Shown here one piece after another: positions 31,422-56,717 of a DNA stretch of 64,000 nucleotides. The translations under genes were made by a program, and so were the position numbers. How positions within the stretch are numbered: position 1 is the first letter of the stretch; every line of letters begins with the position of its first letter. The notes beneath the pieces are model-generated. The model was not told the origin of the DNA. It saw only the letters and a program-made list of their open reading frames with translations, and searched no databases. This stretch comes from Fulvia fulva (Eukaryota; Ascomycota; Dothideomycetes; Mycosphaerellales; Mycosphaerellaceae): positions 868,001 to 932,000 of the forward strand of contig NC_063014.1 of assembly GCF_020509005.1 (NCBI RefSeq). Direction: 5' to 3'.

Positions 31422-32169
31422 TATTAAAGGCTACTATAATATCTAGTTTCGTAAAGTACTTCTTTCCGTATATACGGTTAAGCGTTTCCTATATTAATAG
31501 AATAGGATAGCGATTCTTAATAGTAATAGCGTTTAGCCTACGGTAGTTAATATATACTCGTAGCCCTCCTCTAGGCTTTCTTACTACTAATACCGGTGCC
31601 GGTAAGTAGCTTATTTTCTAACCGGCCTTACGTACCTTACCTTCTAAAGTCTATTCGAGTAACTATTTCTTAACGGCTTCATTCTCTATCTCGGCTAGTC
31701 TATATAGCTTTCGATATAGCGGTTCTTTAGGTCTACCGGGTTTGATATAAATCTCGTAGTCGATACCTAGTCGGTAAGGTAGGAGTCTCTCGTAGTCCTT
31801 TACTAAGAAAGTATCTATAATGTCGTAGTATATAGGCGGGAGCTTCTCTTTAGGATTATAGTTATACTGCTTGTTTAAGAACTGATTTAGGTCATTAGCT
31901 ACTATCGCGCTTAGTTTAAGGCTATTATCGTTATTATTGTTATCCTCGCGCCCCGTAGGTATAATATAGAAACACTCGGCCCTAGGCCGGTACGCGTATA
32001 TCTCCTATACGCGCTACGAGACTTCCTAGTAATTTACATCTTTATCTACCTCTAGAGCGGACATATCTAGCTCCGCCCCTCCGGCTATAAATCCTACTAA
32101 TTCGCTAGTAAAGGGCTTTAGTCTATATTTCGTTCTACCGATATAGTTTAGAGATTATACTATTATCGA

Positions 32170-32188
32170 TGTCTTATTATATAGATAG
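32170..32188. repeat. Target-site duplication of chimeric element a, left
   Basis: TGTCTTATTATATAGATAG, identical to 35066-35084. Confidence 0.9.
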
Positions 32189-32378
32189 ATAGATGATTCA
32201 TTTACCCGTTGTGGTGCCCTCCGGCCCATGCGGGTTTATGTCTATATATGTTACTGCATAAGGTAGGAAACCTATTCCTAGGTAAAAACCTCCTCTCCTT
32301 CTCTAATAGCTTCCTTGCCATGAGTTCTCAGTTTTCCTTCCATTGGGGTGCACTAGTGTCATGGTGGTTAGCCTCTGA

Positions 32379-33987
32379 CTACCTTGTCTGCAACCCTGGA
32401 GTTGTCCCCCTCTTCCTGCTCTCCTCCTCCTTCTTTCTCTCCTCAATCCATCTCTCTGTTTCCCTAGTAAGAGAGAACTGCTCCAAAAATCCTTGGTGGA
32501 TGATCCACCTTGTAATTCTCTGGAGGTCTCCCTTATTGCTAATCATGGCTTGGAAGTTTCTGTTCCTTGCCCTTGCCCTCCATTCACCTCTCCCTGTACT
32601 CCATTCTTTGCAAACCAGAAGTCTATGTTCGACATTCTGGGACAGGTAGCCGCATGGGCAACTCTTGTCTTCGATACCTGGGACTTTTCTCTGATGCAGG
32701 TATGCCCTGACTCCGATGTGTTCAGAGCGGATTTGTATTGCTATGCTTGCTTCTGACCTGGTTAGGTCTGAGTACAGTAGGTAGTTGTGGCTACCAAACT
32801 GTTGGAGTGCCTTTGGGGTTCCTGGCCTCTGTGGGGTTCTTGTCCATTCAGTCTTCCAGAGGAGTCCTGCCATCCTTTCAGCTAGAGACTGTTGCCTCTT
32901 CCCTTGGCTGGCTGCTGATCCTCTCCCTTGAGCCCTTCTGTCCTGTTCCTGCTGGGCTAGGTGCAGCTGTTCTGTTAGCTCTTTGAACTTCTGCAGGTCC
33001 TGCTGCTTCTGTGGGGCTGGATTGGGTCTTGCTTGTCTGTGCCTTCTTGTGCACTGGCTCCTGATTTTGTTGACTGCCTTCTGGATTACTAGCTGGGCTG
33101 GGTATGCAGACGTCTTTCCTGCATACTGGTATCTCAACCCTTGAAGGTAGAGCTTGGCTGGTGGGGAGCCAGACTCCATTTCGACCACCCTTGTTGGAGT
33201 TGACTTGTATGCTCCAAGCACCTTTTTCAGACAGGAGGCTTGGGCTCTGCTGATGGGATCTGCAATTCTCTTTGGGATCTTGTCTTGGGCTGACCAGATC
33301 TGGGCTCCATATAGCATGGCTGGCTTCACAATGGCCTTGTACATAACCTTTGCTTTCGCAAATGTGGCTCCCCATGTGGAGGCTGTAAGCCTGTCAATTG
33401 ATTGCCTGTTGTTGTCTGCTCTTGCCTGTGCTTTCTTGACCTGTGGTCCCCAGCTAAGCTTTGGATCCATCCATATTCCTAGCACCCTTAATTCACTAGA
33501 GGGTTCTGTTGTGTGTCCCTGAATAGTGATTGGGGCTTGCATATTGTGTCTGTTTCTGGCTCTACTGAAGTGGATGAGTTGATACTTCTCTGGGGCAAAT
33601 CTGGCTCCATGTTTCCTGGCCCATTCCTCACATTCCTTGTGTTTCTTCTGCAAGATTCTGCAGTTCTCTTCTGTGCTGTCTGACCAGGCTAGGATGTTTG
33701 TGTCATCCACAAACCCTGAGGCTGATGTGTTTCTGGAGTTTAGCTTTGCTGGCAGGTCTGCCATAAAGAGGAGAAACAGGATTGGAGACATTGTTGATCC
33801 CTGTGGGATTCCTGTCTCTGTAGGCATGCTGTCAGATTTGTATCTGCCCAGTCTTAGTCTTGTGGTTCTGCCTTTGAGGAACGACTGGATGAACTGGACT
33901 GTCCAGTTAGGGATAGCCTTCTGTTTTAGGATGTGGATCAGCCTCTGGTGTGAGACATTGTCAAAGGCTCCTGATATGTCCAGTGAC
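32379..33987 (-). CDS. LINE-A reverse transcriptase, 5'-truncated, open frame
   Basis: About 535 residues from the fusion point to the stop at 32379. Visible motifs are DISGAFD, TGIPQGSTMSPILFLLF, SGFVDDTNILAW (RT catalytic Asp pair), FAPEKYQLIHF, LRVLGIWMDPKLSW, the thumb region and a C-terminal zinc-like CPCGYLSQNVEHRLLVC. The upstream portion (endonuclease and the first RT blocks) is missing. The frame continues about 16 codons into the unrelated 1,079-bp segment before a stop and has no ATG at the fusion, only a TTG. A functional enzyme is unlikely, so movement in trans is inferred. Confidence 0.88.
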
Positions 33988-35065
33988 AAGGAAGGAATCG
34001 TATTTAGCAAGCTAGCTACGAGATAAGGTGACAAGTCTTAACCGCGCTTTCCCACTCATCTAGCACCACCGTGTAGCCTCGTTTCGAGAGGTTAGCCCGG
34101 AGCAAAAGCTTCCCTCTACGCCCTCCCTCCCTGTTTGCTCCTTAAGCCAATATCCACCTCCATAGGCCTAAGCCCTTTAGTGCTCTCTATTGACCGACAT
34201 GCGCATCCGTCCTCTCGGGCTGTACAGACAGTGTCAGCCGTCGCTGCCAGTGTACACCACGCCCCAGGTTTTGACGCCCTTCGCGTTACCGCAGCCTATC
34301 TCTAGAAAGCGGCCGTCCATGCCTCGCAGGTTTGCTCGGGGCACACACCACGCCGGGCAGCGTACTCCTTGCGTTTCCACCTACTAACCAATATGAAGTT
34401 CCTTATCACCCTGCCCTCGATCCTCCCCGATCACAGAACTAATCCACTTGCATTGTACGTCTTTTCCCCGTCCTAACAGCCGTCTTTTCCTTGCTCAGGC
34501 TATCGTCTTTTCCTCGTCGCAATCTACCATGTCAGACTAGGTGCGTTGTGTAGCGGGACAGGCAGTGCCTCAGGCAAAACCCTCGTTCCCATACCGGGTG
34601 TTCAACAGGCCCTTACAGGCTTCGTCGCGTGTCCACCTACCCACCGCATTGCCCGCTGGCAAACACCAGATTGTTTCGTAGTCCGCTCGACGCCGTTGCA
34701 TAGTCCGCTCAGTTGTTGTTCTGTAGTCCGCTCGTCCAATGTTCGTCGCTCAGCCCGCTCGGTTTGCGGTCTCCGGAGGTGAAAATTCTGCACTCATACC
34801 AGAGGTGTCCTGTCGAGCGTATAGGCCACGGTTCCGCGCCCTTCTTACACGTAGAAAGAAGAGGGACTCGCTCCCGACACGAGTACACGCTCGTCGGATG
34901 GTTTTCATACCCGTTTTGCTGGTAGTCCTCTGTTCGCCGCGGCTTCGCCTACGTTGCGCGCCCGTCGCGCCCACGACGCTCCAGCGTGAGAATACTTGGC
35001 TCTCTCGTAGCTAGACGAGAGGTTCGTAGCCGACACCACGTACAGGTGATTCTCGTCGTCGACCT
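33987..35065 (-). repeat. 1,079-bp non-LINE 5' module, copy a
   Basis: Equal in length to 53626-54704 in inverse orientation; in every stretch compared the two are identical. GC-rich, not RIPed, and without an ORF above about 95 codons. I recognise no protein or RNA family. It holds two sets of threefold motifs with 22-23 bp spacing (described at the other copy). Confidence 0.92.
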
Positions 35066-35084
35066 TGTCTTATTATATAGATAG
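35066..35084. repeat. Target-site duplication of chimeric element a, right
   Basis: TGTCTTATTATATAGATAG, identical to 32170-32188. Confidence 0.9.
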
Positions 35085-37820
35085 TAATCGAAGTAGTAGT
35101 TAGATCTAAACGCTACCTCGCTAGTTTCCTAGAAGATGTTCGGGTTATACGCGGAGAGCTACGGTAGTCTAAAGACGATATCGTATTCGAGGTCGGTAAC
35201 GTAGTATAGTATTTGCTCGTAATAACCGCTAATAACTACGTCTATAAGGGCTATATATATGATCTAACGCGCTATAGCCGATCTATCTCCTAGTGTCAAT
35301 CGTCTGTTCTTTATTAAAGAGATTAAGGGGGTTGTATATTTACGTATAAATTTCTAATTAAGAAAGAGAGAGGTAGAGGTAGAATCTATAAGGCCGCGAG
35401 CCTTTTTATATTATATCGTTACGGTTAATACTATATAAGGGTATATAGCTAGTTATTGTTTATCTAGTATATATACCGATATCTTAAGCTCCTTACTATA
35501 GTCCGTCTCTTATATTCTATATCTCTTAATCTTATACTCTTTCTGTCTTAGAAAGTTCGGTTACTAACCGCTATCTACTACGCTTAGGTAGCGGTCGTGC
35601 CATTTCCCTATTACTATAGGTCGGTAGTAAGGGAGCTAAGGTTCGGGTTAGCGTTCGCGTTGTTTCGTAGACGTAGAGGGCGGTAGTCGCCGTCGTAACT
35701 ATATATCGGGCATTCGGGGTTCGTTAATACGTACGAGCCTATACGGTAGCGGTAGTACTTACCCTACTTCTTAAGGTCCTTACGCTACTTACGGTTTAAT
35801 AAAGGCAGGTTCTATAAGTAAACCGGTAGGTCCTCCTTCTTCTTCGTACCTACGTATTATAGTAGTCGCTAGATAATTATAGCGGTCGTACTAGTAGCTA
35901 CGGCGCCTACGGCATTACTACCGCCCTATACGCCGTTATTGTTCGAATTAAAGTTACTACGTAGGCGCTCCTTCTATAGATATAGTCGGTCGGTCTCGTA
36001 GAAGCTCTTATCTAATACCGTACATTCCTTAATAATATCCTATATATTATATAAGCGTCTATCTACTTCCCTATCGCTAAAAGTCTTAATAAAGTACTTA
36101 CGGTTTAGGCGGTTACGAAACAGTATTAGCTTAGTCCCGTCGGTCTACTCTATCTAAGTACGTAGCTTCGAGTAGCGAGCGTAGAAGGTAATAAAGGTCT
36201 CGCTCTACTCCTACTTATAGGTAGCGATATTAACTATAGCCTTAGTTCCTTCGTTACGAGTACCGTACTAGCGCGTTATCTAATCTAGTAGTTCTTTACT
36301 AGTCTTAAACTCGTTCAATAATTATTGTCTAGGCACGGGAATCCTCGGCTTAATACTTCTCGAAGGGTCACCCTATATCTATCTATATATAAAACGTAGG
36401 CCGTCTTACTCGGAGCGGAAAGTAGTTATAGTTAGCTTAAGAAGCACGCTACTATACTAAGTGTCGAAGTTAGGGTCGTTATCGTTCTTAAAGTACTTCG
36501 GGTTAGGTACGCCCTTACTAACCTCGATACCGCGTATTAGAGTACGGTTAATAGTAAATAGGCGTTCTAAAAGTTCGGTTAGGGGAGTCTATATACGGGT
36601 ATTACGCGCTCGAGAGTCGCGACCGTTATTATTATTATTAGGTCGTAGACGGTTTCTGTTACGTCCTCGATTGTTATTACTATTACCGTTATTATTATTA
36701 TTACTACTACCTCCGCCGCCGCCGCCTCTACTAGTAGCTTCACGATACTTACGTATTAGCTACTCGAGTAAAGTCTCGCGTAGAGGTAAGTAGGAGGGTC
36801 GGCGACTAGAGCGACCCCTACCTCTATTCTATATAGTGTCTTTAGTAGCTTAGAGTCGAGTCTTTAGATCGTTAACCTCCTTCTATAGAGCCTAGTTCTT
36901 AGCTTCGGCATCCTATACCTTCTTCTTCTCCTTTTCGTAAATCTCGCTAAATTACTTATATAGGTTATTAGCCTCCCTATACTTCTTCTCTGCCTCTTAT
37001 AACTTTACTAGGTTATAATCCTTCTTACTCTTTAGGTCTACGGCTATCTTCTATATTATAGCCTCCTCGCTTCGTAGCATCTTATAGGTACGGTCGTACT
37101 CGGTATATAGCGTAGTATACTAGGTGTTCTAGAGGTTATTAGCTCGCTCTATTATATCGAGTTGTCTGCCTTTAGTGATTACTATATTTACTACCTATAG
37201 CACGAAGTCGTAGGTAGTCTTCGGGTACTAGGATACGAGAATCGTAAGTTTGTCTAGTATAGTATTCTAGTATTTAGATACGAGAATATGCTCTACCTCG
37301 TCGAGTAATAGGTATACCTCGTCTAGGTCCTCTTCGAGCTTAAATTCGAACAGTTCTATAAAGTCAATCTTACTACCTTCTTCTCGCTCGAAGGCTTTCT
37401 AGTAAGCTTTATTAATTTCCTATTATAGCGCGATACCGGTATCTACTATCACCCGCCGGTTATCGTCCTATATCTAACTCTAAGGAAAAGAGGAGAGGTC
37501 GGGGAAAAGAGATATACGCTACTTACCTTTGCTCTTAGGCTTTAGTAGCGGTAGTATACCGCCGTTCGTCTATAGAGTTATATTATCTAGGTTCGGGGGA
37601 GGCGTAACGATGCCTATTTCCTGACTATCTACGAGCGCGCGACTACCTACTAATAATATCGCCGCGTTACGTTCTCTAGGTATTTACGCGCTATACGCCT
37701 TACCGTGTTCTATGTTCTAATACGACTCTACGCGTCCTTCGAGTTCTATAGTTCTGTCTATTCCTATTATTACGCGTCCCTTACCTAGATCCGCGATCTA
37801 GGTAGGGTAGTAGAACAAAC

Positions 37821-38004
37821 TATAAGGGCGCGCGTACCGTAGGGTCCGAATAAGAGAGTTATTATTCTACGAAGCTACGAAAGAGGAGCGCGAGGCGCGG
37901 CGAAGTTATAAAGTAAAGCTAAGCCGCGCTAACCCGATACGGAAGGTCCGCGGCTCACCCGGGCTAACGTAGCTATAGTAAGGAGTCGCGGGCTACCCGT
38001 AATA
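37821..38004 (-). repeat. Gypsy-1 5' LTR
   Basis: 184 bp, the same length as the left LTR and nearly identical. The differences are a mix of RIP-type changes and a few other substitutions. Confidence 0.9.
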
Positions 38005-38698
38005 CTAAGTACGTAAACTAGACGCGTATACCTATACTACGGTACGCCGAAGGCGACGAAGTATAGGTAAGTACTAAGAACTAGACGATAGAGAGACCTT
38101 CTCGTAAGATAGACGTAAAGTAGTCTAGACCGTACGTAATTACGGAGGTACTACCGGGTAATACTTATAAAGTAGAGCTCCTACCTACTTTAAATATCGA
38201 CAATCGCTTCTACTTATACCTTCTTATACTAGTTTATCCGCCGGTTATAGGACAGATATAACCCGTACTACTACCGATCCGAGTTATTAATAACAAATAA
38301 TACGAAGCCGATCCCGCCGAACCTAATTAATAGGAAGTTAAGCAAATTCTAGACTATAAGAAGAGATAGCCGCGAGGACTAATACCGGTAGGAGGCAAGT
38401 AGCTATATTAGGAATACTTAGTGAAATATATTAGATATAATAAGCTATCCTATAAAGCTACGGACTAGGTTATCGAGACTACCGCCGCCTCTATAGCCGA
38501 CTTTTACTATAACTATCCGAGAGCGACTAAGCTACCTAGTTTTTAACTACCTATAGACTAGATACTGAATAAGAATGCTATAGGTATACGTATAGCGCGC
38601 TAACTAGTATAAGTAGCGATAGCTCTAATACCGGTAGAACGAGGCCTCCGAGCTTATAAGAAAGAGAGCGATATATATAGTCTTATAGATAATAATGT
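38005..38698 (+). mobile_element. Gypsy-2 (chromovirus) integrase C-terminus and chromodomain, RIPed
   Basis: Plus-strand codons, ignoring RIP stops, read RPYVITEVLPGNTYKVELLP (GPY/F module, about 38,130-38,190), then after a spacer EVKQILDYKKR, EYLVKYIRYNKLSYKATD and ADFYYNYPRATKLP (about 38,335-38,530). That is a chromodomain with its YLVKW..Y core and the ADF..RYPRA.KP tail seen in fungal chromoviruses. This differs from Gypsy-1, which lies on the other strand. The element continues after Copia-1, at 56718, with its polypurine tract and LTR. Its 5' part is not recognised in the window. Confidence 0.82.
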
Positions 38699-39103
38699 TA
38701 AATAGGTATAGTATATATATACACGGAAGTTAGGACACGTAATAGGGAAGGAGGAAGGACTAATATAGTATACGAAGGTATATAGTATAATAGTATTTAG
38801 TACTAAAGGTGTCTCTACTATCGGTATAGAGACTACGTCTCTTATACCTATATAGAGGGATATTGCTCTAGTCCTAGTTCTGTTTTACTACGCCTTATCG
38901 GTTTTACCTATATCTTATCCTACGACGGTAGTTCCTCCGACAGTCTTGTATTAACTATCTAAGCAACTTTAGGTCCTCTAAGTCGCTCCTACTATTCGTA
39001 CGGTATCTCGGTAGTATTACCGTACTATTGTCTCGACTAGCTTAGTATATACTAAGTTAATCTTAGTACCGTACGACATACCTACTAACCTATATTCGTA
39101 ATA
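38699..39103 (-). repeat. Copia-1 3' LTR (uninterrupted copy)
   Basis: About 405 bp, from TAAATAGGTATAG to TTCGTAATA on the plus strand. At 38,806-38,824 it contains the uninterrupted sequence TTTAGTACTAAAGGTGTC, the empty version of the site filled by the second chimeric element. Confidence 0.88.
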
Positions 39104-40158
39104 CTCCTACTTAGGTCGTAAGGTAAGGAACGATTGTTCCTACTATACTAGCTATAGCTATCGTACGAAGGTCTAGAACTAGGGACCGGCTAGCGGTTTA
39201 GTTAAACTATCTACTACTATCTCCTTAGTATAGTAGTACTCTACTTTGATCTTCCTCTACTACTAGAGGTACCTAATATAGTTATAGGCAATATTAATAT
39301 ACTTAGATCTTTCGTAGATATAGGCGTCCTTAACTAAGGTTAGAGCCGCCTAGTTATCCTCTATAAGGCGTACTAGTCTCAGTTTGTCGGCGGTGCTCTT
39401 ATCGGCTAGGACTATTAGTTAGAAAGAGTAGTCTCCTACTAGCCCCGGGTAGTTTATCTCTCGGAGGATAGCCGCTAGGAACTAGGATTGTTTCGCGGCG
39501 GCGTTTATCGCTATAAACTCTACCTCTATAGTAGAGGTTGCTATAGACTTTTGCTTCTTACTTATCTAGAATATAGGCGTACCGTATACTAGCTAGACAT
39601 GTCCTAGAATTAAGACCCTATCTACTCGATCTATCGCGTAGTCGGAGTCTAAGTATCCGGTTAGGGCACCGCTACTACGTCTAAACATTAACCCTAGGTC
39701 GGGGAACGACCTTAGGTATCTCGAGACCTTCTTTAGTACTTTTATATACCGCTTTGTTAGATCCGCGACATATATACTAGTTCTCCGAGTAGGAAGGCTA
39801 GGTCCGGTCTCGTTATAGTCATTAGCTATATCTAGGTCCTACTATCGCTCTAGTAGTTATCCTTACTACATCTCTCGTCGTTCGGGGCTATAGGACGGAG
39901 ATTATCGTAACTATCTATTAGCGAGAGTGTTAGGCTTGCCTTTTCTTTTACTATGTCTATTTTAGTAAGGGCCTTACGGATATAATAGCCCTAGTCGAGA
40001 TTTAGGGTACCGTTACGCCTATCGCGAGTAATCTTTAATCCTAGTAGTTTCTCCGGTTCCCCGAGATCCTTAATCTTAAAGTGTTACGCGAACTACTTCT
40101 TAAACTATTAGATGTCGGTCAACCTTAGTGCTATAATAGGTATGTCGTCTATATAGAT

Positions 40159-43100
40159 GGATAGATTATTTATTCGCCTGTTTTAGTACCCTATAGCCTA
40201 TATAGGTCTCTCGCTATTTAGGTCTATTTATATAGGTAGGAAACCCGATTAACGGATAAAAACCTCCTCGTCTTTGCCCTCCTCGTTCTTTCCTATCTTG
40301 TCCTTTCGTTCTCCTTCCTTTAGGGTACGCTAGTATTATAGTTATTACCCTATAACTACCTTGCCCGTAACCCTAGTAATGTCCTCCTCTCGATTCCCTT
40401 TCTCCCTTTTATTTCTCCGGCTCTTCTCTCTCTCTCCCTCCTCTCTATCTACCTTTCCGTTTCTACTACTAGGGAGAATTGCTCTAGGTAGTCCTCGTTA
40501 AGGATCTATCTTATCACTCTCCTAATATCTTGTCTATTCTAGATAATAGCCTAGTATTACCTATCTCTTGCCTTCGCCCTCTACTAGCTTCTCCCTTTTA
40601 CCTACTTAGTACAGTTTAGTACTATATACTCCGGATTTTAGGATAGGTAGCTATAGGGGTAACGTTTGGAATCGTATCCTAGGACTCTTCTTTAGTATAA
40701 GTATACTCTTAGCCTGATGTACTTAGAGCGAATCTAGATAGCTATGCTTACTTCCGCCCTCTTTAGGTCTTTGTAGATAAGGTAGTTATACCTCCCGAAG
40801 GTCCTAGCCGCTAGTAGGGCTCCTAGCCTTACCGATTTTTGGTTCTAACGCGTTTTATATAGGTGACCTACGATCCTTTCTACTTAGCTTTGCTTCTTTT
40901 TCCCTTTATCCCCTATATTAGCTTGCTCCCTTAGAGCTTCTCTCTATTTAAGGGCTACTAGGATTTCCTATAATGTTTTTAGGTCTACTTCCTTCTATAG
41001 GATTGTATATAGCCAGTTAGGTCTTCTCCTCCTCTCCTACTAGGTTCTCATCCTTTAAGTAGCTACTTAGATAGTTCCCTAGGCTAGGTATACTAATGTC
41101 TTCTCTACGTATTAACACCTTATGCCCTAGAGGTACTTCCTAATAGGGGCTGTACCTAATTCCATTTCTATTGTCCTATAAGGGGTTGACTTATATGCCC
41201 CTAGTACTCTCTTTAGGCAAGCTACCTACGCTCTATTAAGGGGGTCCTTAATTCTCTTCGGGATATGTTTTTCCGCTACCTAAATTGCTACTCTATATAG
41301 TATTACGGGCTTGATAATAGCCTTATATATAGTCTAGGCCTTTATAAAGGTCGCCCCCTAGGTTGACGTAGTAAGTCTCTCGATTAATTGTCTATTAGTG
41401 TCCGCTCTCGCTTACGCCTTCTTTACTTATAGTCCCTAACTAAGTTTCGGGTCTAGCTATATCCTAAGGACTCTAAGTTCTCTTATAGGATAGGTCTCGA
41501 ACCCCTAGATTTTTACTAGTACTACTAAGTTATGTTTTGTCTTTACCTTACTAAAATAGATTAGTAAGTACTTGTCCGGTACGAATTTTGCCCTATACTC
41601 TCTTGCCCACTTTTCGTATTGTCTATGTCTCTCCTCTAGGAGTGCGTAGTTTTCCTCTATAGACCCCGATTACGCTAGGATATTTATATTATCTACAAAC
41701 CCCGATACTAAGGTGTTTACTGTTTCTAGGAGTAGGGTCAGGTCGGCTATAAAGAGGAGGAATAGAATTAGGGAGAGTGTAGAGCCCTATAGGATGCCCG
41801 TGTTCGTAATTAGGGTCTACGGGGCTTTAAAGGACCCTAGGAGGATCTGGGTTGTTCTGTCCTTAAGGAATGACTATATAAAGTATACTATCTAGGCTAG
41901 GATACTTTTTATTCTAAGGATATATAGGAGCCTTACGTAGGACACGTTATCGAAAGCCCCTAATATGTCTAGTAAAAGTAGTAAGGCTACCTTATTGTTA
42001 CTATAGTACTAGATGTGTCTAATTTGCTCTATAATCAGTTCGACTACTATAAGGGTAGATCTCTCTTATCTCCCCCCTATTTACGTTACCGGGAGGAGGT
42101 TATGTTCTTCTACTATTCCGGTAAGCCTTATAGCTACGACCTTCTCTAGGAGCTTCCCTAGTATATTTAGTAACGTAATTGGTCTATATGACTTCATCTT
42201 AGTATAGTCTTCCTTTTAGGGTTTCCTTAGGACGTAAGTTAGTAATTACCTAAAGGCCTTTAGGTAATACCCCTACTTTATATACTAGGTGAAGAGTAGC
42301 GTAAGTACTAGAGTAATAAGGCTACTACTAGCTTTTAGGTAATAGTTAGGGATCTTGTCTAGGCCTAGGGCTTTGTTGCCCTTTAGTTTCTTAATAATGT
42401 TTCCGATCTCTATAGTAGATACTTACTAGTTAGCCTCCCTTAGCGGAGAAATATATATTCCTAGGATATTACTTAGGTCTACCTCTACCTAAGTCCCGAA
42501 GAAGTGGTCTACGAATACTTTCGCTTTCCCTATCGGAGTGGTTTGCGTTTCCCCGTCTTAGTCCTATATTAAGGGAAACTAGGGCGGGGAGTTTCGTTCC
42601 TCGTCTAGTTTCCTAGCCTATTCTACTAGTCTCTAGATTTATTCTAGGTGTTCTATAATTATCCCTATAGTTAATCTCTACTCCTACGTCTTATCTCTTC
42701 TGATCTGCGCCTTCTTTACTTTGTACGCGTTGTTATAGGCTTCCTAGTTTACTTAGGTACGTCGTTACTCCTATCTCCTTCTTACTCTCCTTGCCTCCTT
42801 AACTTTGGCTATATACTCTAGTGTCTAGTATAGCTTCTAGTATAGCGACTATCTCTTCTTAGGTATATAGGCCTAGGCTGCCCTTTGTATAGCTTCTATT
42901 AGCTACTCTACTACTTAGTCGATCCCCTCCGTTATATATATATCGTTAATATTTACCTGTTCTAGTTCGCCTTCTAGCCGCTACTATACTAGTGTCCACT
43001 CGGCCTACTTCTAGTAGAGCTTCCTCTTAGGTTCCCTCTCCTCCTTAACTATAAGTTAGATGTCGGTTTGGATTAGATAGTGGTCTAATAAGGACTCTAG

Positions 43101-46100: not shown

Positions 46101-49100
46101 GTACTATCGACCTATACTTTCTATCGAGGGACGTAGTAATAAGGCTAGTAGAGTATAGACCTAACCTTGCCCTAGAGGTAGGGTCAGACTTCATCCCTAT
46201 CTAGATAACAATAGCGACGGGGATAGAAGAGGAGCTCCGGGGTGAAAAGCGCCTTAACTAGAAAAAAGCTCCCTAGGAGGAGATCCGGAATCTACTTAAA
46301 TAGTACCTAAATAACACTAGTATCGGGGAGACGGAAGCCGAGCTTAATAGTACGGCAGAATAGATAATAACGACGATATAGTAGGCGGCCGAGGAACATA
46401 TACTAGAACTAAGGCCCTCGAAGCACTAGAAGCCCTTCTAGACCCTAGAGTACTTAGCTAAAGTTAAGGATATAAGGAGGGCAAGGCAAAAATAGACGAA
46501 GGAGCAAAGCTAAGAAGCATAGGACGAGTACTAGGAAGCAAGTTAGGCAAAGAAGGCCTAAATACGACGAGATAAGCGATAAGACTAGAGGGCAACTATA
46601 GGTCTTATAATAGAGAACCCGGAGTAGATATAGCGGCTTATAAAGTAGGTAAGGGCCGGAGACGGGGATAGGACACTACACTTCCCCCTAATCTAGGATA
46701 CGATAGGCATAATATAGATAACGCCGGAAGGGAAGGCGAAGGCGTTCGCCGACCACTTCTTTACGATATAGTTAATAGCTAACCTAACGGATATAGAGGC
46801 AACGATCTACCCGGAGCTACTCGATATATACTAGATAGTAGGTAAGGAGGAGATAAAGGAGATTATAGGAAAGCTAAAGGGCCGTAAGGCCCCGGGACCC
46901 GACGGTATCCTAAACCTCCTCCTTAAAGAATATAAAGAAGAAGTCGCCCTATACCTCGCCGAACTATTTACGGCTTGCCTACGTAAGGGATACTACCTAC
47001 GGCCATTTAGGCGGTCCCTTATAGTCGTCCTAAAGAAGCTATAGAAGGAAGACTATACAAAGCTAAAGTCCTATAGGCCGATCGTACTCCTAAATATAAT
47101 TAGAAAGATACTAGAGAAGGTCGTAGTAAGAAGAATTATATAGGTCGTCGAGGATAATAACCTACTCCTAGAGACATAGATAGGTAGTAGGAGCAAACGA
47201 TCTACCCTAACGGCTATAGAGCTTATTACCGATTAGATTTATACTCTCTAGTACTATAGACGGAGTAGGGTTATATTACTATTGTCTCTCGATATCTTAG
47301 GGGTATTCGATAACGTCTCCTACGAGCGACTCCTCTATATCCTACGGCAAAAAGGAATCCCGCGGTAGGTAATAAGTTTCGTAAACTCCTTCCTTAAGGA
47401 GAGAATAACGTAGATTGTCCTTAGGAAGCGTAAGGAGGGCAACCTTATATATATAGAATGCGGGATCCCCTAGGGCTTAACTCTATCCCCGATCCTCTTC
47501 CTAATCTTTATAGCGGACCTAATCCTACTACTCACCTTACTATAAACGTCGGTCTCGGAGTTCGTCGACGATACGAACATCCTAGCCTAGTTAACGACGA
47601 CCAAAGAAAACTACTAGCTACTTATAGAAAGACACGAGGTATACGAGGAATAGGCACGTCGACACGGCGCCCGTTTCGCCCCGGAAAAGTACTAGCTTAT
47701 CCACTTTAGTAAGGCAATAACCTACTATAATATATAAGTAACGGTAACTATCTAGGGTTACGTAACGAAGCCCTCTCCCGAATTACGAGTCCTAGGAATC
47801 TAGCTAGACCCTAAGCTTAGCTAGAACCCCTAGATTAGGAAAGCCTAGAATAGAGCCTAGGTTAACGAGGCTATAATAACTAGACTCACAACATTAATAT
47901 AGGGAGCTACGTTTAGTAAGGTAAGGGTTATATATAAGACGATCGTAAAACTAGTAATACTCTACGGGGCCTAGATATAGGGGATAGGAGGAGTAGGTAA
48001 ACCGATCTCGAAGCGGATAGAGGGACCCCTAAACAGGACGTAGGCCGCGAACCTTAGACGGATACTAGGAGCCTATAAGACAACGCTAACGAGAGTAGCG
48101 GAAGTAGAGACAGGGTCCCCCCCGATTAAACATTATATTAAGGGAATAAGGATCTAATACGCTAGGAAGACGGCGGATTATCTAGTATAATAAGCTATTC
48201 GGGACTCTACGGAGAAGATCGCTAGGAGGTACGACCGACTACCTTACCTTAGGGTACATTAAAGCTAAAAGTAAGACGACCTACGTACATTTAAAGTCGT
48301 TAAGCGAACCTAGGAGTAGATAGAGAGGAAGGAGGAGGAGGAAAAGGCACGGAGGAAATAGGGTAATAAGGCAAAGATATAAAGCCTCGTAGAGTAGGTA
48401 GCGGGCTACCTTTAGGAATAGGAATAGAAAGAGAATTCCCTACCGAGTCGAGGACCCCTAGCCTTACGCCCCTTCTAGAGACATAACTACCTACTCTACC
48501 GTAACCTAATAAGGGCCGAAGTAAGCATCGCGATATAGATTAGGTCCGAATATATCGGGTTAATGGCCTACCTATATAGAAGGAAAGTCCCGGACGTATA
48601 TAGCCTAGTATACTAGTATAACTACCCGTTATAGAACCCGGAGTATATAATACTACGGTGCCCGTAATAGGTAGAAGGACGAAGCTAGTAGAGAGCTAAG
48701 GTAGTAAGACGCGACTACTAGTTAATCGTAACGGATAAGCGAGACGTAAAACGGATAGTATAGTAGATACTATAGTAGGGCTTTCTTAAACAGTTCGCGC
48801 TAGCTAGCGAGACGGAGGAGTAGATAGAGAAGAGGCGGGAGGTTAAGGGGGTGTAGACAGGGTAGTTATTAGGGCAGGCCTATAATACTAGTGTACCCTT
48901 AATAAGGAAAACACGAAAGAAGGCAAGGTTAAGAACGTATAGGAGAGGAGAGGGGGGTTTTACTCTATAATACGAGTTTCCCCTTTATAACTAGAAGTAG
49001 GTAGTATAGCTATATAGGCTAACAGGCTCTATAATAGCATAATAAACAATATATATATATATACTATTAATAGTAGACTTTCGCTATACTCCCGATCTTT

Positions 49101-49621
49101 AGTGTCTACTCCTTGTTTATTTCGAGGGCCTTCTTATCCTATACGTATACTATAAACAGCTTGACCCCTTTATTATCTACCCTTGCCCCTACTATTCCCT
49201 TTACTCTAATCTTCTCGACTATCTCCCTCCCGGTCATCTTTCCTATCTCTTCCTTCTCTTTCTAGTCCGTAATATAGACTCGTAGTACTATACTCTAAGG
49301 GGGGTAGGTTGGCTCGCGATTGTTACCTAGGTCGTTAGGCCCTAGGTCTATCTCGGGTCTCTTTAAGGGTTATTTCTTACGTTTCGTATTACTACCTCGA
49401 TTGCTATATTAATCGTAGTGCTTATTTATCGTTTAAGCGCCTTTAGTCCCCCGAGTAGTTCGCTTATTACTCCTTTTAGTACTCTCTCTAGAAATCTCCC
49501 TTCTTCTACCGCTACTATCTCTTCCGCCTTCTTATAGAGCGTCCTCTACTCGTCTCCCCCTTACTCTCGGTCGTCTACTACCGTCGTCGTCGCCATTTTT
49601 TTAGTAGCTTAGTCTATAGGC
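40159..49621 (-). mobile_element. LINE-A, RIPed full-length-like copy interrupted by LINE-C
   Basis: Inserted in Copia-1 RT with the 18-bp duplication TATGTCGTCTATATAGAT (40141-40158 and 49622-49639). Without the nested LINE-C it is about 4.9 kb. On the minus strand ORF1 starts near 49,600 (EIVEKIRVKGIVGARV, GVKLFIVYV) and continues at 44,100-44,508; endonuclease is at about 43,000-43,800 and RT at about 41,000-42,500 (SGFVDNINILA). The 3' end resembles that of chimeric element a (32,189-32,330), so this is the RIPed relative of the LINE used there. TAG/TAA stops occur throughout. Confidence 0.87.
44524..49057 (+). mobile_element. LINE-C, RIPed, nested in LINE-A
   Basis: A 4,534-bp plus-strand insertion with the 15-bp duplication TATATACTATTAATA (44509-44523 and 49058-49072). 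ORF1 is at about 44,530-45,500 (PEKKRELEGLINKELIDRI, with a Cys-rich region near 45,000-45,170). Endonuclease is at about 45,530-46,230 and RT at about 46,870-48,100 (KGRKAPGPDGILN, CGIPQGLTLSPILFLIFIAD, VSEFVDDTNILA, HGARFAPEKYQLIHFSKA). The tail is TA-rich rather than ATCT-rich. It is close to LINE-A in protein sequence but a separate copy or subfamily. It is the youngest of the three nested layers here, yet is also RIPed. Confidence 0.87.
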
Positions 49622-52600
49622 TATGTCGTCTATATAGATTAGTAGTATAATGTCTCTCTTAGTATAAGTTAGGAGATATAGGTCTACCTCGGACTAGTAG
49701 AATCCTATTTTAACTAACGTAGTAATATAGAGCTTGTTCTAGTCTCTAGCTACCTACTTTAGGCCGTAGAGACTCCGGAGTACCTTAAGGACCGTATTCG
49801 GTAGGGTTTCGACTTCTAGTAGGGGTTTTATATAGATATCTTCGGCTAGGTGGCTTTAGGTAAACGTATTATTAACGTCGACCTAGTATATCTCGAGATC
49901 CCGCTCGTAAACTACTACTATAAAGACCCTTAGGGTGTTATAGCGTACTATAGGTACGAATGTCTCTTTGAAGTTAACGCCGAATTTCTATAAAAACCCT
50001 CTTACGACAAGTCTTGCCCTAAACTTTTCGATTGCTCCGCTAATAAGTCTCTTTACGTTAAAGACCTACTTAGAGGTAACTATATTCGCCCCCCTTAGAG
50101 CGACAGCCGTTTCCTAGGTATTATTACTTAATAAAGAGAGCAGCTCGGTATCGATAGCGTCCTTCTATAAGTAGCCCTATTTAGGATCCTATACCGTAGC
50201 CTTGTATATCTTCGGAATAGGTACTTCCTATTAGTAGGCGATACCGGGTCCGAATATAGTAAAGGCGTATTCTTAGACTTCGTCGAACAGTTCCTCTACC
50301 GTAGCTATAAACATACGTTCGTCGGTATCGGTAAGTCTATTATTCACCTATAGTAGTTAGTAGAATAAAGCTATTATAGCTTTATAGTACTTAGCCTTAT
50401 AGTCCTAGTCCTAGCCGTAGTTATTATTAGGATCCCTAGTCCTTTTCCTCCGGACGATTAGTTCCGGTAGCTCCGGAGTTTCCTCGATCTTCTTATAGTC
50501 CGTAATATTATCTAGTCTACCGGGAAGTTAGATATAGAGCGGTCTTAAGACAGTTAGTCCTTTGTCCTTAGCCGTAGCGGGTTCGGTCTCTACGTAGAGA
50601 GTAGGGATTAGCTAGGTCGGTTCTTCTATAGAGGACTCGGCTACTTTAGTAGTAGAAAGTTAGGGTATTATACTACCCGAGGATCGTGAGATTGCTATCG
50701 GGGCATCCGCTAGTCGCTAAACTAGTAGTAGTCGCGAGACCGCCGGTAGTCGACCGACTAGCCTTCGTTCGGATACCCTACTAGGTTAGTTCGTAAAGGA
50801 GATACCTAAGTCTAGATCTCCCCCTTTCTCGTTTTCGAACTAATCTACTTGGCTATACTACCTAATAGCTCGTATATCTAGCTCCTAGAACAACTATTGC
50901 TTAGTCGATTAACCGTATCTAACGAAAATAGCTTCCTTATCCCGGTTTATTAACTTATCTTATCGTAGCCCTTTTAGATATAATTTCGGTTCTACGTAAA
51001 CCACTACTATACAACCCTATACTCTTAGGTGATCTACCGTCGGTACTTTACTAGTAAATACTTCTTCCGGTAAAAGTTAGATACCGTTAAGTAACGGTCC
51101 GTTTAGTAGTAGGTTACGTATAACCGCCTATACCTCTAGCGCTTTAGGCTAGAATTCTACTAGCATCCCCGATTCCTCGAGTATTACGCGGATCGCGTTC
51201 TCTGATACCTAGATTGACATTTCTACTACTCCGTTTTATATAGAGTTATAAGTATTCGTCGTATTGTATTAAACTCCCGATTCTTTCTCCTATTCTTTTA
51301 GAACTATTAGTAGCTTAGGTATATTATTATTCCGTACTACTCTTACGTAGTATTTCGATACTTTCTCTATAGTTAGCCGCTATTATCGTAGTGCTTACGG
51401 TACGTCGGATTTGTTCTTAAGCGGGATTACCTACTTCTTTCTTAAGAAGTTATCTACGATCTCTAGCTAGTATTTGAAACCTAGCCTAGATGTCGTATTT
51501 TCGAAGGGTCCGTAGATATCGGTAGATATAAGCGCAAGCCTTTCGTTCTTTCGTTCTACGATAGCGCCTTTAAACTTCCGTATATTTGCGATAGAGTATA
51601 CCTTATAGTTATACTCGTCCGGGATAGGAATCGGGTCTTTCTTATTACTTACCCTATAGATGTTCCGGAGTAATCCTTTACCTAGGTATACGAATCTTCT
51701 ATACTAAAGCTCCTACTAATCCTCGGTAGTTACCGCGGCTAGAGCTTCCTCGTATAGTATCTCCGGGGGTCTATTATCTACCTAGTTTAGGGAGTTAGAT
51801 ATCGAAGATACTACCGGTACCCCCCCCCTTATAGTACTATTCGTACGATAGGCTTTCCGCTCTTATACTTAAGTATAAAGTTTAGAGGTTCGATATCGAA
51901 TTGCTTACTAAACTGCCTCTATAAAACTAGATTAACTCCGAGATTAGGAACAAATAAGACTTTCTCTAGCGCAATTTATTTCCCCCTTAGGCCTCCTATA
52001 GTTACTGTTCCTTTATAGAATATATCTAGGTACCCCCTACCGACTTTGATTACTTTCCTTCTCGCTAGTTTCCTAAGCGATCTAAATAGAGACTTATTAT
52101 CAGTTATGTATAAGGAGGTATAGGAGTCTAGTAACTATTCGGAGGCGGGAAACTTGCCTTTTACTTCGGTAGTAGAATAGGCGACTTCGTCGTTATATAT
52201 TTCCTCGGTATCGCTTTCTCGTAAGGTATAGGCTCGTATCGCCTTTGCCTTTATCTTGTTATCGGATTGGCTTCTCCTATCCTTCTACTGTTTCCTAGAC
52301 TTCTTAAGGGCGTTTTAGGCCTTCTCTAGATCCCGGACTAGCTCTTCGTAGGACTTCTTCTCCGGTTACTTCTAGGTATTCTTCTTTTTAATAAACTCCT
52401 TTACGGAATCTAGTTCCGGGCACGATATAACTAGGTAGTTACTATCGTAGATAAAGTAGCCGCTCTTACCCCCTTACCTCTAGGAGTATAGAGCGGTCTC
52501 GCCCTTACTCTCTTAGATCCGTAATTCGTAGGATTTAAGTAAGGTTATAGCGGATTCCTAGCCTAGGTTTAGCTAGGCTAGAATAGTGTCCCTAGTACTA

Positions 52601-53625
52601 GCGTAGACGTCCGGGAGGCTACTAATACGGACAAGGCGTAAGACAGGGCGCAAACGTATCAATACCTTAGAATCGAATAAGTTCTACGAAGAGGAGAAGA
52701 TAAGAAAGTCGCGAAGCCGCGATAAAGTAAACGCCGAGGTTAGGGTCTAGGGTCCGGGCGCGCTAGCGTACTAGGTTACGTAACACTAAGTATAGCCTTA
52801 CGAGGTGAACCGTAATAGCTACTTAGTAGGTGCTTAAACCTCCGGATAGGGTCCTTATAGTAGGTCTCTTTACTATCTATTTCGGAAATCTATATAGATA
52901 GGTTACCTAGATATATCTACCCTTATCTAATTATCTAATCGTCCGGTAGCTTAAACGACACTAGCTATTTTATAAGCGCTACTACGTATGCCTTATAGAC
53001 CTTACTATACTTCTTCTATAGAAGTTTCTAGATCTCTTTTACATCTCGTATATCTAAGATTTCTTAGTTATCCTCCTCGGACAAATATACTAAGATAGTA
53101 TATCTCGCTATACCGTTCGCCTTCGAAGTAATCTTAGGCGTAACGGATTCTAGGAGATTAGCCGACGAGTCGTCGATAACCTAGAATACCTCCCGGCTTT
53201 CGAGATAGTCTCGTAGTATAACGAACTAGCGCTTCTAGTTCTTACGAGTAAGGGTAGGGCCGACCTTCCGGGGGCCCTCGTAACTCGTTAAGTCTTCTAT
53301 AGCGAAGGTAGCCTTAGATATATAGTAAGCTCTACTTAACTACGGTAGTTAGAATAAGCTTAGACTCCCCGAGTCTATTAGTAGCGTTCCGTATAGTAGA
53401 CTCCTAGAGTCTATTAGTACGTTACCGTACGGATTCCGGGTATAGAGTATAATACCCTACGTCGTACTTCCTTAGTATATCGATATCCTATTAAGCAAAC
53501 CCGGGCTTATAACCTAATAAATAGGTATAGTATATATATATACGGAAGTTAGGACACGTAATAGGGAAGGAGGAAGGACTAATATAGTATACGAAGGTAT
53601 ATAGTAGAATAGTATTTAGTACTAA

Positions 53626-54704
53626 AGGTCGACGACGAGAATCACCTGTACGTGGTGTCGGCTACGAACCTCTCGTCTAGCTACGAGAGAGCCAAGTATT
53701 CTCACGCTGGAGCGTCGTGGGCGCGACGGGCGCGCAACGTAGGCGAAGCCGCGGCGAACAGAGGACTACCAGCAAAACGGGTATGAAAACCATCCGACGA
53801 GCGTGTACTCGTGTCGGGAGCGAGTCCCTCTTCTTTCTACGTGTAAGAAGGGCGCGGAACCGTGGCCTATACGCTCGACAGGACACCTCTGGTATGAGTG
53901 CAGAATTTTCACCTCCGGAGACCGCAAACCGAGCGGGCTGAGCGACGAACATTGGACGAGCGGACTACAGAACAACAACTGAGCGGACTATGCAACGGCG
54001 TCGAGCGGACTACGAAACAATCTGGTGTTTGCCAGCGGGCAATGCGGTGGGTAGGTGGACACGCGACGAAGCCTGTAAGGGCCTGTTGAACACCCGGTAT
54101 GGGAACGAGGGTTTTGCCTGAGGCACTGCCTGTCCCGCTACACAACGCACCTAGTCTGACATGGTAGATTGCGACGAGGAAAAGACGATAGCCTGAGCAA
54201 GGAAAAGACGGCTGTTAGGACGGGGAAAAGACGTACAATGCAAGTGGATTAGTTCTGTGATCGGGGAGGATCGAGGGCAGGGTGATAAGGAACTTCATAT
54301 TGGTTAGTAGGTGGAAACGCAAGGAGTACGCTGCCCGGCGTGGTGTGTGCCCCGAGCAAACCTGCGAGGCATGGACGGCCGCTTTCTAGAGATAGGCTGC
54401 GGTAACGCGAAGGGCGTCAAAACCTGGGGCGTGGTGTACACTGGCAGCGACGGCTGACACTGTCTGTACAGCCCGAGAGGACGGATGCGCATGTCGGTCA
54501 ATAGAGAGCACTAAAGGGCTTAGGCCTATGGAGGTGGATATTGGCTTAAGGAGCAAACAGGGAGGGAGGGCGTAGAGGGAAGCTTTTGCTCCGGGCTAAC
54601 CTCTCGAAACGAGGCTACACGGTGGTGCTAGATGAGTGGGAAAGCGCGGTTAAGACTTGTCACCTTATCTCGTAGCTAGCTTGCTAAATACGATTCCTTC
54701 CTTG
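53626..54704 (+). repeat. 1,079-bp non-LINE 5' module, copy b
   Basis: Inverse copy of 33987-35065. Internal structure: GAGCGGACTA at 53958, 53981 and 54003 (spacing 23 and 22 bp), then GGAAAAGACG at 54178, 54201 and 54224 (spacing 23 and 23 bp). No ORF above about 95 codons. The 3' boundary falls in TTCCTTG, which also occurs at the corresponding place in LINE RT, so a few bases of microhomology sit at the fusion. Confidence 0.92.
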
Positions 54705-56409
54705 CTAGACATATCGGGAGCCTTCGACTACGTGTCACACCCGCGGCTTCTCTACATCCTAAGGTCGAAAGGACTCCCTGAGTGGCTTGTCAACTTCGTA
54801 CGGTCCTACCTCCAAAACCGCAGTACGTCGATCCTGGTCGGCCAGTACAGAAGCCCATTTCAAGCAGTCCACACTGGAATCCCGCAAGGCTCAACGCTAG
54901 CACCTATTCTGTTCCTCTTCTTTATGGCGACGCTGCTCCCAGCCCTAGAATCCCAGAACACCGCTGCGAGCGGCTTCGTAGACGACACAAACATCCTAGC
55001 GTGGTCTTCCTCGACTGAGGAGAACTGTAGGCTACTAGAAGAGAAGCACAAGATCTGCGAGGACTGGGCTAGGAGGCACGGGGCTCGGTTTGCCCCAGAA
55101 AAGTACAATCTGATACACTTTACGCGCCGGCCACGGTTCCACAATATGCAAGCTTCTATCCAGATACAGGGGCACACGACTAACCCGGCAAATCAGCTCA
55201 GGATCCTCGGACTATGGGTGGACCCGGCGCTACGGTGGAGGAAGCACGTACAGGCAATATTACGGAAAGCTGAACAGAATATGGCATCATGCCAGAGGCT
55301 CACTGCGTCCACATGGGGGGCGGACTTCCGGCAGTCACGACTTCTATATACGGCTATTGTACGGCCAGTCCTTACCTATGGCAGCCAAGTGTGGTCCTTA
55401 GGCGAGAGGGCCTGCCCATCGAAGGGACTCGTCGCGCCGCTAGCGAAGATCCAAAACCAATGCCTAAGGAAGGTCACCGGGGCATATAAGTCGACACCAA
55501 CGAGGATGCTTGAGCACGAGACCGCTATACCGCCGATCGACCTATACATCCAGGGACTACGGACCTCCTACTTAGGCAAGTCGGCACAGTACCCAGTACA
55601 GAAGGTCATCGCCAGTGCAGTCGCAAGGGCCCGCGAATCAGTACCAGCGCACAAGGGCATTCGACCCGGAAACGAGCCGAACTACCGGGCAAGGGACGAA
55701 CAGCTAGCAACACAATGGGAAGGTGAGAAATCGTTTGTAGAGCAACTATGGAAAGAGAGGTGGAACAACCAGGTTGTAGGGCATAGTGGACGCCCTCAGC
55801 CAGCGGGACAACCTAAGGAATGGTCAGCTACAAAATCCGCGGTCAAGCACCCCCCGAAGCTCATCCACTACCGCCTTACGAGGGCACAGAGTAGCATAGC
55901 AACCCAACTGCGAAGCGAACACATCGGCCTCCAGGGGTACCTATCATGGAGGAAGGTTCCAGGATACACGAATACTAGCTGCCCCTGCGGCTATCGCTCC
56001 CAGAACGTACGGCACGCACTCCTCGTCTGTCCGAGGTGGTCGCTAGGAAGGGGGGAGTGGATGGCAAAGGCGAGGAACCGGACGATTGGGGCACTTCTTA
56101 ACAACGCTGAAGACCTACGGCGCATTACGAACTGGATACTAGAGAAGGGCTGGCTAGAACAGTACCGCCTAGTAGGAGCAGTGCAGGAAGAGAGGACACG
56201 ACGCAGCGCGACGAGACCGGCTAGGAGCGGGGGCTAACGGGGTAGTGACATGGACTACGTACGTTCAGAGGGAAAGCTAATCTAGACAAGGAGTAGTCGG
56301 GGGCGGGAAGGGTTTTCACCTATTCGGGTTTCCCTTTGTACATAACAATAGATATATACCTGCATAGGCCGGATAGGGTCCTAGAACAGGGGAATGACAA
56401 ATCTATCTA
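53630..56409 (+). mobile_element. Chimeric retroelement b: 1,079-bp unknown segment fused to LINE-B 3' half
   Basis: A 2,780-bp insertion in the right LTR of Copia-1, flanked by TTTAGTACTAAAGGT (53615-53629 and 56410-56424); the last four bases AGGT also match the element start. The first 1,079 bp are the same module as in chimeric element a. From about 54,705 it is LINE-B: DISGAFDYVSHPRLLYIL through the C-terminal CPCG region, the 3' untranslated region and an ATCT tail. It is not RIPed. The uninterrupted Copia-1 LTR at 38.8 kb shows the exact empty site, so the insertion boundaries are certain to within the microhomology. Confidence 0.95.
54701..56237 (+). CDS. LINE-B reverse transcriptase, 5'-truncated, open frame
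   Basis: About 511 residues in frame from the fusion to the stop at 56235-56237. Motifs: DISGAFDYV, TGIPQGSTLAPILFLFF, SGFVDDTNILAW, FAPEKYNLIHF, LRILGLWVDPALRW, MLEHETAIPPIDLYIQGLR and the C-terminal CPCGYRSQNVRHALLVC. It is the un-RIPed counterpart of 29,715-31,250. The frame extends about 16 codons upstream into the unknown module and begins at TTG, not ATG. Endonuclease and early RT blocks are missing, so it is probably not an autonomous enzyme. Confidence 0.9.
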
Positions 56410-56717
56410 TTTAGTACTAAAGGTGTCTCTACTATCGGTATAGAGACTACGTCTCTTATACCTATATAGAGGGATATTGCTCTAGTCCTAGTTCTGTTTT
56501 ACTACGCCTTATCGGTTTTACCTATATCTTATCCTACGACGGTAGTTCCTCCGACAGTCTCGTACTAACTAGCTAAGCGACTTTAGGTCCTCTAAGTCGC
56601 TCCTACTATTCGTACGGTATCTCGGTAGTATTACCGTACTATTGTCTCGACTAGCTTAGTATATACTAAGTTAGTCTTAGTACCGTACGATATGCCTACT
56701 AGCCTATATTCGTAATA

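Follow-up and report, generated by a model that had tools for sequence, protein, structure and literature searches.

Two Composite Elements Share a Noncoding Module

The window analyzed here is a stretch of 64,000 nucleotides of Fulvia fulva (contig NC_063014.1, positions 868,001 to 932,000 of the forward strand), and it contains two composite elements in which the same noncoding module of about 1.1 kb precedes a 5′-truncated long interspersed nuclear element (LINE). An earlier note, made from the sequence alone, had pointed to two inverse copies of 1,079 bp, at 33987–35065 on the reverse strand and at 53626–54704 on the forward strand, and these are indeed identical at 1079/1079 positions. 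The first base of the shared segment belongs to the flank and matches by chance. Because module copies elsewhere begin GGTCGAC, the unit itself has 1,078 nt and lies at 53627..54704 (+, copy 2) and 33987..35064 (−, copy 1, where the strict ribozyme descriptor presented below sets nt 1 at 35064). Its longest sense open reading frame (ORF) starting with ATG codes for 52 amino acids.

Both copies end in a G (54704 on the + strand for copy 2, 33987 on the − strand for copy 1) that junction reading identifies as the joining point. In composite 2, it is followed by a 5′-truncated LINE-B (54705..56407, +) that starts at native position 4464, at the site AGC^CTAGAC (the caret marks the joint), and has a TCTA-repeat tail; in composite 1, it is followed by a 5′-truncated LINE-A (32189..33986, −) that starts at native position 4547, at the site CTC^TCACTGG. 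The two LINE parts come from different families, as had been proposed: positions 32178–33986 are 99.9% identical to a native LINE-A copy and positions 54694–56410 are 99.7% identical to a native LINE-B copy, and the matches between native LINE-A and native LINE-B are limited to a 248-base stretch at 72% and a further 29 bases. The two joints had also been placed at the same position of the reverse transcriptase (RT). Both are just before LDISGAFD, but at different nucleotides, as the LINE-A part (TCA CTG GAC) begins one codon upstream of the LINE-B part (CTA GAC).

Target duplications were examined in these two composites only, and both have them, with lengths of 14 nt (5′ copy 53613..53626, 3′ copy 56408..56421, +) and 19 nt (5′ copy 35066..35084, 3′ copy 32170..32188, −) instead of the 15 to 19 bp given earlier. 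Independent evidence for a clean insertion of composite 2 comes from an unbroken paralogue of its target at 38699..39103 (+), an empty site that matches 53518–53629 and 56408–56717 without interruption. These two matches overlap by 17 nt, so that the target GGT after the duplication coincides with the first three bases of the module, and the 5′ junction may possibly have involved microhomology. Composite 1 has a single additional A at 35065, between the target duplication and the module. The window also contains a long LINE-B copy without module (26483..31429, +; 89.8% identical to the native copy in the in-window comparison), in which the junction site is intact and reads AGC CTAGAC straight through.

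Distribution of the Module and of Its Junctions

The genome searched has 67,169,167 bases in 14 contigs. The Race 5 assembly of Cladosporium fulvum is described as having 67.17 Mb in 14 chromosomes, with 16.3% of Tad1 LINEs and heavy repeat-induced point mutation (RIP) (PMC9453070). The module 3′ end (32 bases, up to two mismatches) has 597 matches genome-wide, spread over many contigs, and the same pattern read backwards has none. Junctions were read in 136 of the 597, a nonrandom sample. A first set of 115 combines 100 places from the listing of 3′ ends with 15 from a search with the whole module, and a second set consists of the 21 previously unread copies among 35 that have one marker base in common; eight loci that merely repeated the same place were removed before counting.

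In all 136 junctions the module stops at one fixed base, after which comes LINE sequence or a module followed by LINE sequence, and none of the 136 is a free-standing module. In the first set, 103/115 copies have G as final base and 12 have A, the base that RIP leaves in place of the G of TpG; in the second set, 21/21 have G. At the other extremity, 40 loci include the module from end to end (38 found by genome-wide module searches and 2 in the marker-base sample), and alignment of the outer module starts at nt 1 in 39 of them and at nt 2 in the remaining one. The exact start GGTCGACGACG is found in 29 of these 40, and the other 11 differ inside the start word. Among the copies read, 5′-truncated modules occur only within the double-switch elements described below.

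Families A and B and a third family, C, have an ORF2 with endonuclease and RT domains according to Pfam, which shows no RNase H in any of the three. In the first sample, a position in native LINE A, B, or C could be assigned to 96/115 copies, which occupy 60 different sites. Beyond the module, the remaining 19 show sequence of related LINE families, a short stretch that is not LINE followed by LINE-like sequence, or a further module followed by LINE (one of them, L069, is LINE-like only weakly and by protein, and another, L118, is weak but similar to L016). In the second sample, 20/21 copies map to LINEs, adding six new sites, and one maps to the module. Pooled, this gives 116 copies at 66 LINE sites (A 14, B 25, C 27), with the reservation that at least two pairs of adjacent sites (B1467/1469 and C4496/4497) may each be a single one. 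Up to 10 mismatches in 45 bases were tolerated in the mapping, because of RIP.

Hence, fusion takes place at many positions and not at the single one that the earlier note had supposed. The LDISGAFD site accounts for 18 of the 96 mapped copies of the first sample and for 1 of the 20 LINE-joined copies of the second. It is nevertheless the top or joint-top site in each family: A4547 holds 6/19 copies of family A (the runner-up site holds 1), B4464 holds 4/40 of family B, level with B5309, and C4496–4497 hold 9/57 of family C, where C4028 holds 8. The LDISGAFD-region sites of the three families are at most three nucleotides apart in codon frame, and not identical.

These counts bear on the proposal that the module is simply the 5′ UTR (untranslated region) of one LINE family, with truncated copies arisen by deletion. 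Some LINEs, R2 among them, do begin with an HDV-like ribozyme (HDV, hepatitis delta virus), of the kind predicted below for the module (PMC3774820). Yet no single junction site of the first sample exceeds 6 of the 96 mapped copies (C4496, C4028, and A4547 have six each), three LINE families and further related ones are used, and for each of A, B, and C the one native copy examined has neither the module nor, in the 5′ regions scanned, a match to the looser ribozyme descriptor. Nor do all module copies read continue into a LINE 5′ end. The proposal is thus next to negligible.

Repeated Joining

Eight modules that are identical throughout stand on eight different junctions, and the 35 copies with the common marker base show 26 different junctions. 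Conversely, the sites C4028, C4496, and C4755 are each used by differing module haplotypes. Because identical modules are found on many sites and one site carries different haplotypes, descent of one composite from the other is too simple an account; it would have undone the earlier suggestion of a donor RNA repeatedly captured by the LINE machinery as a 5′ part. That suggestion agrees with the junctions, and in the copies read joining has been repeated and independent.

One could still propose that joining happened only once in each of a few master composites, or in a single one, and that re-transcription then multiplied these, with the ribozyme releasing them from co-transcripts. The recurrent sites and the pair L009 and L024, which share both haplotype and junction, would fit such amplification. 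It can add copies but cannot account for the diversity of 66 distinct LINE sites, of identical modules at many sites, and of different haplotypes at one site; the copies read refute it as sole explanation, and it is regarded as highly improbable.

Three elements (L023, L209, and L210) show double switches, from LINE to a 5′-truncated module and then to a full module. The inner module was left after A-C in 3/3.

A Sequence Rule at the Junctions

At 56/60 of the different first-sample sites, the native LINE sequence follows a short rule, R-Y^Y (purine-pyrimidine^pyrimidine). Position −1 is a pyrimidine at all 60 sites and position −2 a purine at 56; the first LINE base is C at 54 and T at 6, and the second is C at 42. 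There is information at positions −2 to +2 and little at the others, and the commonest form is R-Y^C-C. As R-Y-Y makes up 10.4% of the positions of the same LINEs, 56/60 is far beyond chance (p ~4e-50). Two seeming mismatches at the first LINE base disappear on comparison with other LINE-C copies. A longer module end, proposed from an extra C at two junctions, was rejected because other LINE-C copies have that C. When the rule was fixed beforehand and applied to the second sample, 7/7 new sites conformed (six in LINEs and one in the module).

A control is provided by LINE copies truncated inside the element and not capped by a module. Among 52 regions fetched there were 18 truncated copies at 17 sites, a small set in which 17/18 copies are LINE-A and several ends are blurred by additional bases, and these show R-Y-Y at 3/17 (Fisher p 2e-9 against the module junctions) and a pyrimidine at −1 at 7/17. 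With the unambiguous ends only, the figures are 3/11 (p 6e-6) and 6/11. From the absence of the rule in module-free truncations, it therefore appears that R-Y^Y belongs to the joining of the module and not to RT stopping in general.

The preferred RT pause site suggested in the earlier note is insufficient as the only explanation, since module-free truncations lack the motif and no extra RNA structure is found. Indeed, RNA structure near used sites did not differ from that near 346 unused R-Y-Y-C sites in any of five windows (all p > 0.1), and stalling of the RT by RNA structure was rejected for want of any excess at the sites used.

Among 100 listed LINE-A 3′ ends, 9 belong to module-capped copies and 13 to uncapped truncations, in a nonexhaustive count covering 5′ ends from ~4547 to 5841; capping is therefore a common fate. 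A cluster of module-free 5′ truncations (L163, L170, L177, L179, and L183) lies at LINE-A ~4959–4981, beside the module junction A4960, and is likely to be an ordinary RT stop region.

A Predicted Ribozyme at the 5′ End of the Module

The first 77 nt of the module (53627..53703, +, in copy 2; 34988..35064, −, in copy 1) can form all the helices of an HDV-type ribozyme with zero mismatches, as a nested double pseudoknot starting at nt 1. In module coordinates, these are P1 (1–7/31–37), P3 (18–20/28–30), P1.1 (22–23/38–39), P4 (44–50/57–63), and P2 (11–16/72–77), and J4/2 (64–71) contains C-N-A. The L3/P1.1 pairing is GU/AC and differs from the CC/GG of R2, the pairing being preserved. A strict descriptor was composed with G1, a 7-bp P1, a 3-bp P3, a 7-nt L3 with U1 and G6 (the positions that U and G have in HDV-like ribozymes), a fixed P1.1, P4, C-N-A in J4/2, and P2. 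It thus demands the catalytic C and constrained A of J4/2 and the U and G of L3, all of which the module has. The C and A of the J4/2 region and the weight of a G in L3 are described for HDV-like ribozymes in PMC3774820.

In the window, on both strands, the strict descriptor matches only at 53627 (+) and 35064 (−), the latter being the first base of copy 1, and in 44,706 dinucleotide shuffles of the module it matches at 10 of 45,510,708 positions. A looser descriptor matches the module at positions 1 and 2, and shuffled sequence at 5/61,080 positions. Both descriptors were composed after the candidate fold had been noticed, from known HDV features. In Rfam, a 125-base 5′ stretch retrieves up to E 10 only RF02682, an HDV ribozyme, with a full-length alignment from nt 1 and a score of 13.1 bits, well short of the gathering threshold of 44 (E 2.2 over 4,227 families). 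Slightly diverged copies have none of their 24 variable positions in nt 1–77, but as the chance of this is about 0.17 it is no evidence of constraint.

Altogether, the 5′ end of the module looks like a self-cutting HDV-type ribozyme, as judged from the modeled fold, and this likely ribozyme was overlooked by the earlier note. Reverse splicing of a group I intron, considered because the module ends in G, was rejected: Rfam gives no group I match at E ≤ 5, and no guide-length consensus is found upstream of the site.

Origin of the Composites

The origin that is regarded as probable is that the module is a ribozyme-processed RNA taken up as a 5′ end during LINE reverse transcription. The donor would be a discrete noncoding RNA of ~1,078 nt, its 5′ end set by the HDV-like ribozyme of nt 1–77 and its 3′ end always reading ...UUCCUUG. 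During target-primed reverse transcription, the LINE RT would quit the LINE template at R-Y^Y (optimally R-Y^C-C), land on the 3′-terminal G of the module RNA, and copy it up to the ribozyme-made 5′ end, and the chimeric cDNA would integrate with ordinary target duplications. The module would then supply otherwise 5′-truncated LINE copies with a portable 5′ end in the style of R2, and it may aid 5′-end completion. Both the self-cleavage of the module RNA and its joining by an RT jump are inferred from sequence, and template jumping is the simplest reading of the junctions.

Several observations weigh against this uptake during reverse transcription. It leaves the origin of the module 3′ end unexplained, and prior ligation of the RNAs would yield identical DNA. 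No source locus for the module was found, with 136 of the 597 3′ ends read. With 1,401 bases including the whole module, Rfam at E ≤ 5 does not list the HDV family and gives only a long noncoding RNA family at E 2.9, which adds to the low score of RF02682 and to the way the descriptors were composed. The whole-module fold is not more stable than those of shuffled sequences (z +1.9). As for the joints, 4/60 LINE sites lack a purine at −2, one module-to-module site (nt 371) retains a G and not a pyrimidine at +1, and the module-free control is small and almost all LINE-A.

If RNA ligation came first, a LINE RNA (or sometimes a module RNA) would be cut at R-Y^Y by an endonuclease, its 5′-OH fragment ligated to the module 3′ end by a tRNA-type ligase, and the chimera retrotransposed. 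For U6/LINE-1 chimeras of mammals, two mechanisms are under discussion, and RNA ligation by RtcB is one of them (PMC13174262). An endonuclease could yield the strict pyrimidine at −1, which module-free truncations lack. No fungal nuclease, though, is known to have an R-Y^Y specificity, matching chemistry would be required at the module 3′ end, where nothing here indicates one, and double switches would require two cuts and two ligations. Such a sequence of events is considered unlikely.

The module might alternatively be an extrachromosomal RNA, viroid-like or retrozyme-like, cut by its ribozyme from a circle or concatemer and captured by LINEs. A single predicted ribozyme at the 5′ end and the lack of free-standing copies among the 136 junctions would agree with this. 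Against it, an exact head-to-tail dimer is absent from the genome (0 matches for the joined ends with a gap of 0–8 nt), the opposite strand has no descriptor match, the fold energy is, as said, no better than that of shuffled sequence, and a circular fold is no better than a linear one. Exact 20- and 25-base words of the module have 0 matches in viral_contigs. This possibility is deemed extremely unlikely.

Under the favored uptake during reverse transcription, the choice of site might conceivably involve pairing of R-Y-C-C in the LINE with the ends of the module, whose 3′-terminal G and 5′-GGU together give GGGU. At the four informative positions, the degenerate letters fit a wobble helix with 5′-GGGU (A and G pairing with U, C and U pairing with G). 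The idea is weakened by four internal GGGU of the module (nt 153, 423, 483, and 654) and is offered as a hypothesis, not as a result. A broader conjecture, somewhat unlikely as a whole, is that the module is a hitch-hiking mobile RNA of a hitherto undescribed type, with no protein and no LINE-type tail of its own, that spreads only by offering the LINE RT a ribozyme-finished 5′ end. The pairing of its ends (3′-G and 5′-GGU) with R-Y-C-C of any copied RNA would set the place of joining. WEIRD, an RNA of Magnaporthe, would be its counterpart, for which an HDV-like ribozyme at the start and, as deduced from its G-Y-Y motif, a 5′-GGC are predicted.

Relation to Known Chimeras

The closest parallel, correctly named in the earlier note, is MINE of Magnaporthe, in which WEIRD, a 1,113-nt noncoding RNA, is fused to a truncated MGL LINE (PMC2104539). 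WEIRD was described in 2007 as a well-expressed RNA without known gene. In both systems, a full-length noncoding RNA of ~1.1 kb lies 5′ of a 5′-truncated LINE in the same orientation, with short target duplications, many junction sites of which some are reused, and no solo copy found. The module composites thus have the features of a MINE-type chimera: full-length noncoding RNA, sense joining, 5′-truncated LINE, and target duplications. Double switches occur in both, the three found here paralleling a tripartite element of Magnaporthe (PMC2104539). The comparison with WEIRD is one of architecture and switch motif, not of sequence. A recount of Table 3 of PMC2104539 gives an R-Y-Y end in 13/14 distinct listed switch sites. 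The GCC-type motif of MINE is of the same class as the R-Y^Y of 56/60 module junctions, and this fit suggests one mechanism in two fungal classes.

The differences are of scale and detail. Copy number is ~18-fold higher here (597 3′ ends versus 33 MINE chimeras; PMC2104539), and the module uses at least three LINE families whereas MINE uses MGL. The module has a predicted 5′ HDV-like ribozyme, and the accessible text of PMC2104539 mentions none for WEIRD. That paper draws the junction one base later and reports no microhomology, and it proposes hairpins upstream of the sites, which are not seen at the module junctions.

In the R2 SIDEs and R2/R1 hybrid SIDEs (short internally deleted elements) of Drosophila (PMC3414825), as in the module composites, an HDV-like ribozyme (a predicted one in the module) stands directly upstream of a LINE 3′ part and is moved by the machinery of that LINE. 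Furthermore, module nt 18–33 share their P3-L3-P3′ skeleton with a primer in the R2 catalytic region used in that paper. SIDEs, however, form a few long-lived lineages in ribosomal DNA, whereas the module joint was re-made at at least 66 sites on many chromosomes, with a donor that is a 1.1-kb RNA outside the native LINEs examined. No SIDE-type lineage with one fixed ribozyme-LINE junction emerges from these 66 LINE sites. The predicted ribozyme of the module lies at the exact 5′ end of the insert, as do R2-type ribozymes such as that of Drosophila R2 (PMC3774820), but the R2 ribozyme belongs to the LINE and that of the module to a separate RNA joined in trans. Mammalian U6/L1 and other 3′-LINE-1 chimeras also have a full-length stable RNA 5′ of a truncated LINE in sense orientation, and in the accessible part of PMC13174262 no comparably strict junction rule or 5′ ribozyme is noted for them. 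By analogy, the favored origin would be that of WEIRD/MINE crossed with that of R2/R1 SIDEs.

The architecture (from MINE) and the link between ribozymes and LINEs (from SIDEs) were thus already known; new are the predicted ribozyme on a captured RNA, the strict rule with its control, the employment of one RNA by several LINE families, and the scale. No report of such chimeras in C. fulvum was found in the open-licence literature, subscription papers being outside this coverage. The word "chimeric" is absent from the accessible text of PMC9453070, as are "chimeric" and "ribozyme" from that of PMC10823647, and one open-licence library gave nothing on fungal HDV-like ribozymes on LINEs. The 5′-end completion of LINE insertions is poorly understood, and this genome makes the rules of template jumping or RNA ligation measurable, as it offers likely events by the hundred, with a single acceptor RNA, ends that are fixed, and a short rule for the donor. 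Should the ribozyme prove active, several LINE families would be sharing an R2-style 5′ end in trans, and the WEIRD puzzle of 2007 would gain a testable answer.

Other Observations

In four loci (L001, L092, L098, and L124) a short stretch that is not LINE lies between the module and LINE 5′ sequence, and these look like captured LINE co-transcripts with upstream flank. Three loci, L036, L037, and L038 (G000 C1:8826068-8835437), have an identical junction and 5′ flank, lie ~4.67 kb apart, and represent a tandem segmental duplication of one composite. A LINE-B copy, L138, has an internal deletion of native positions 4413–4465 that removes the LDISGAFD junction point. Within the module, the internal repeats GAGCGGACTA and GNAAAAGACG occur in three copies each, spaced by 22–23 nt, at nt 332, 355, and 377 and at nt 552, 575, and 598.

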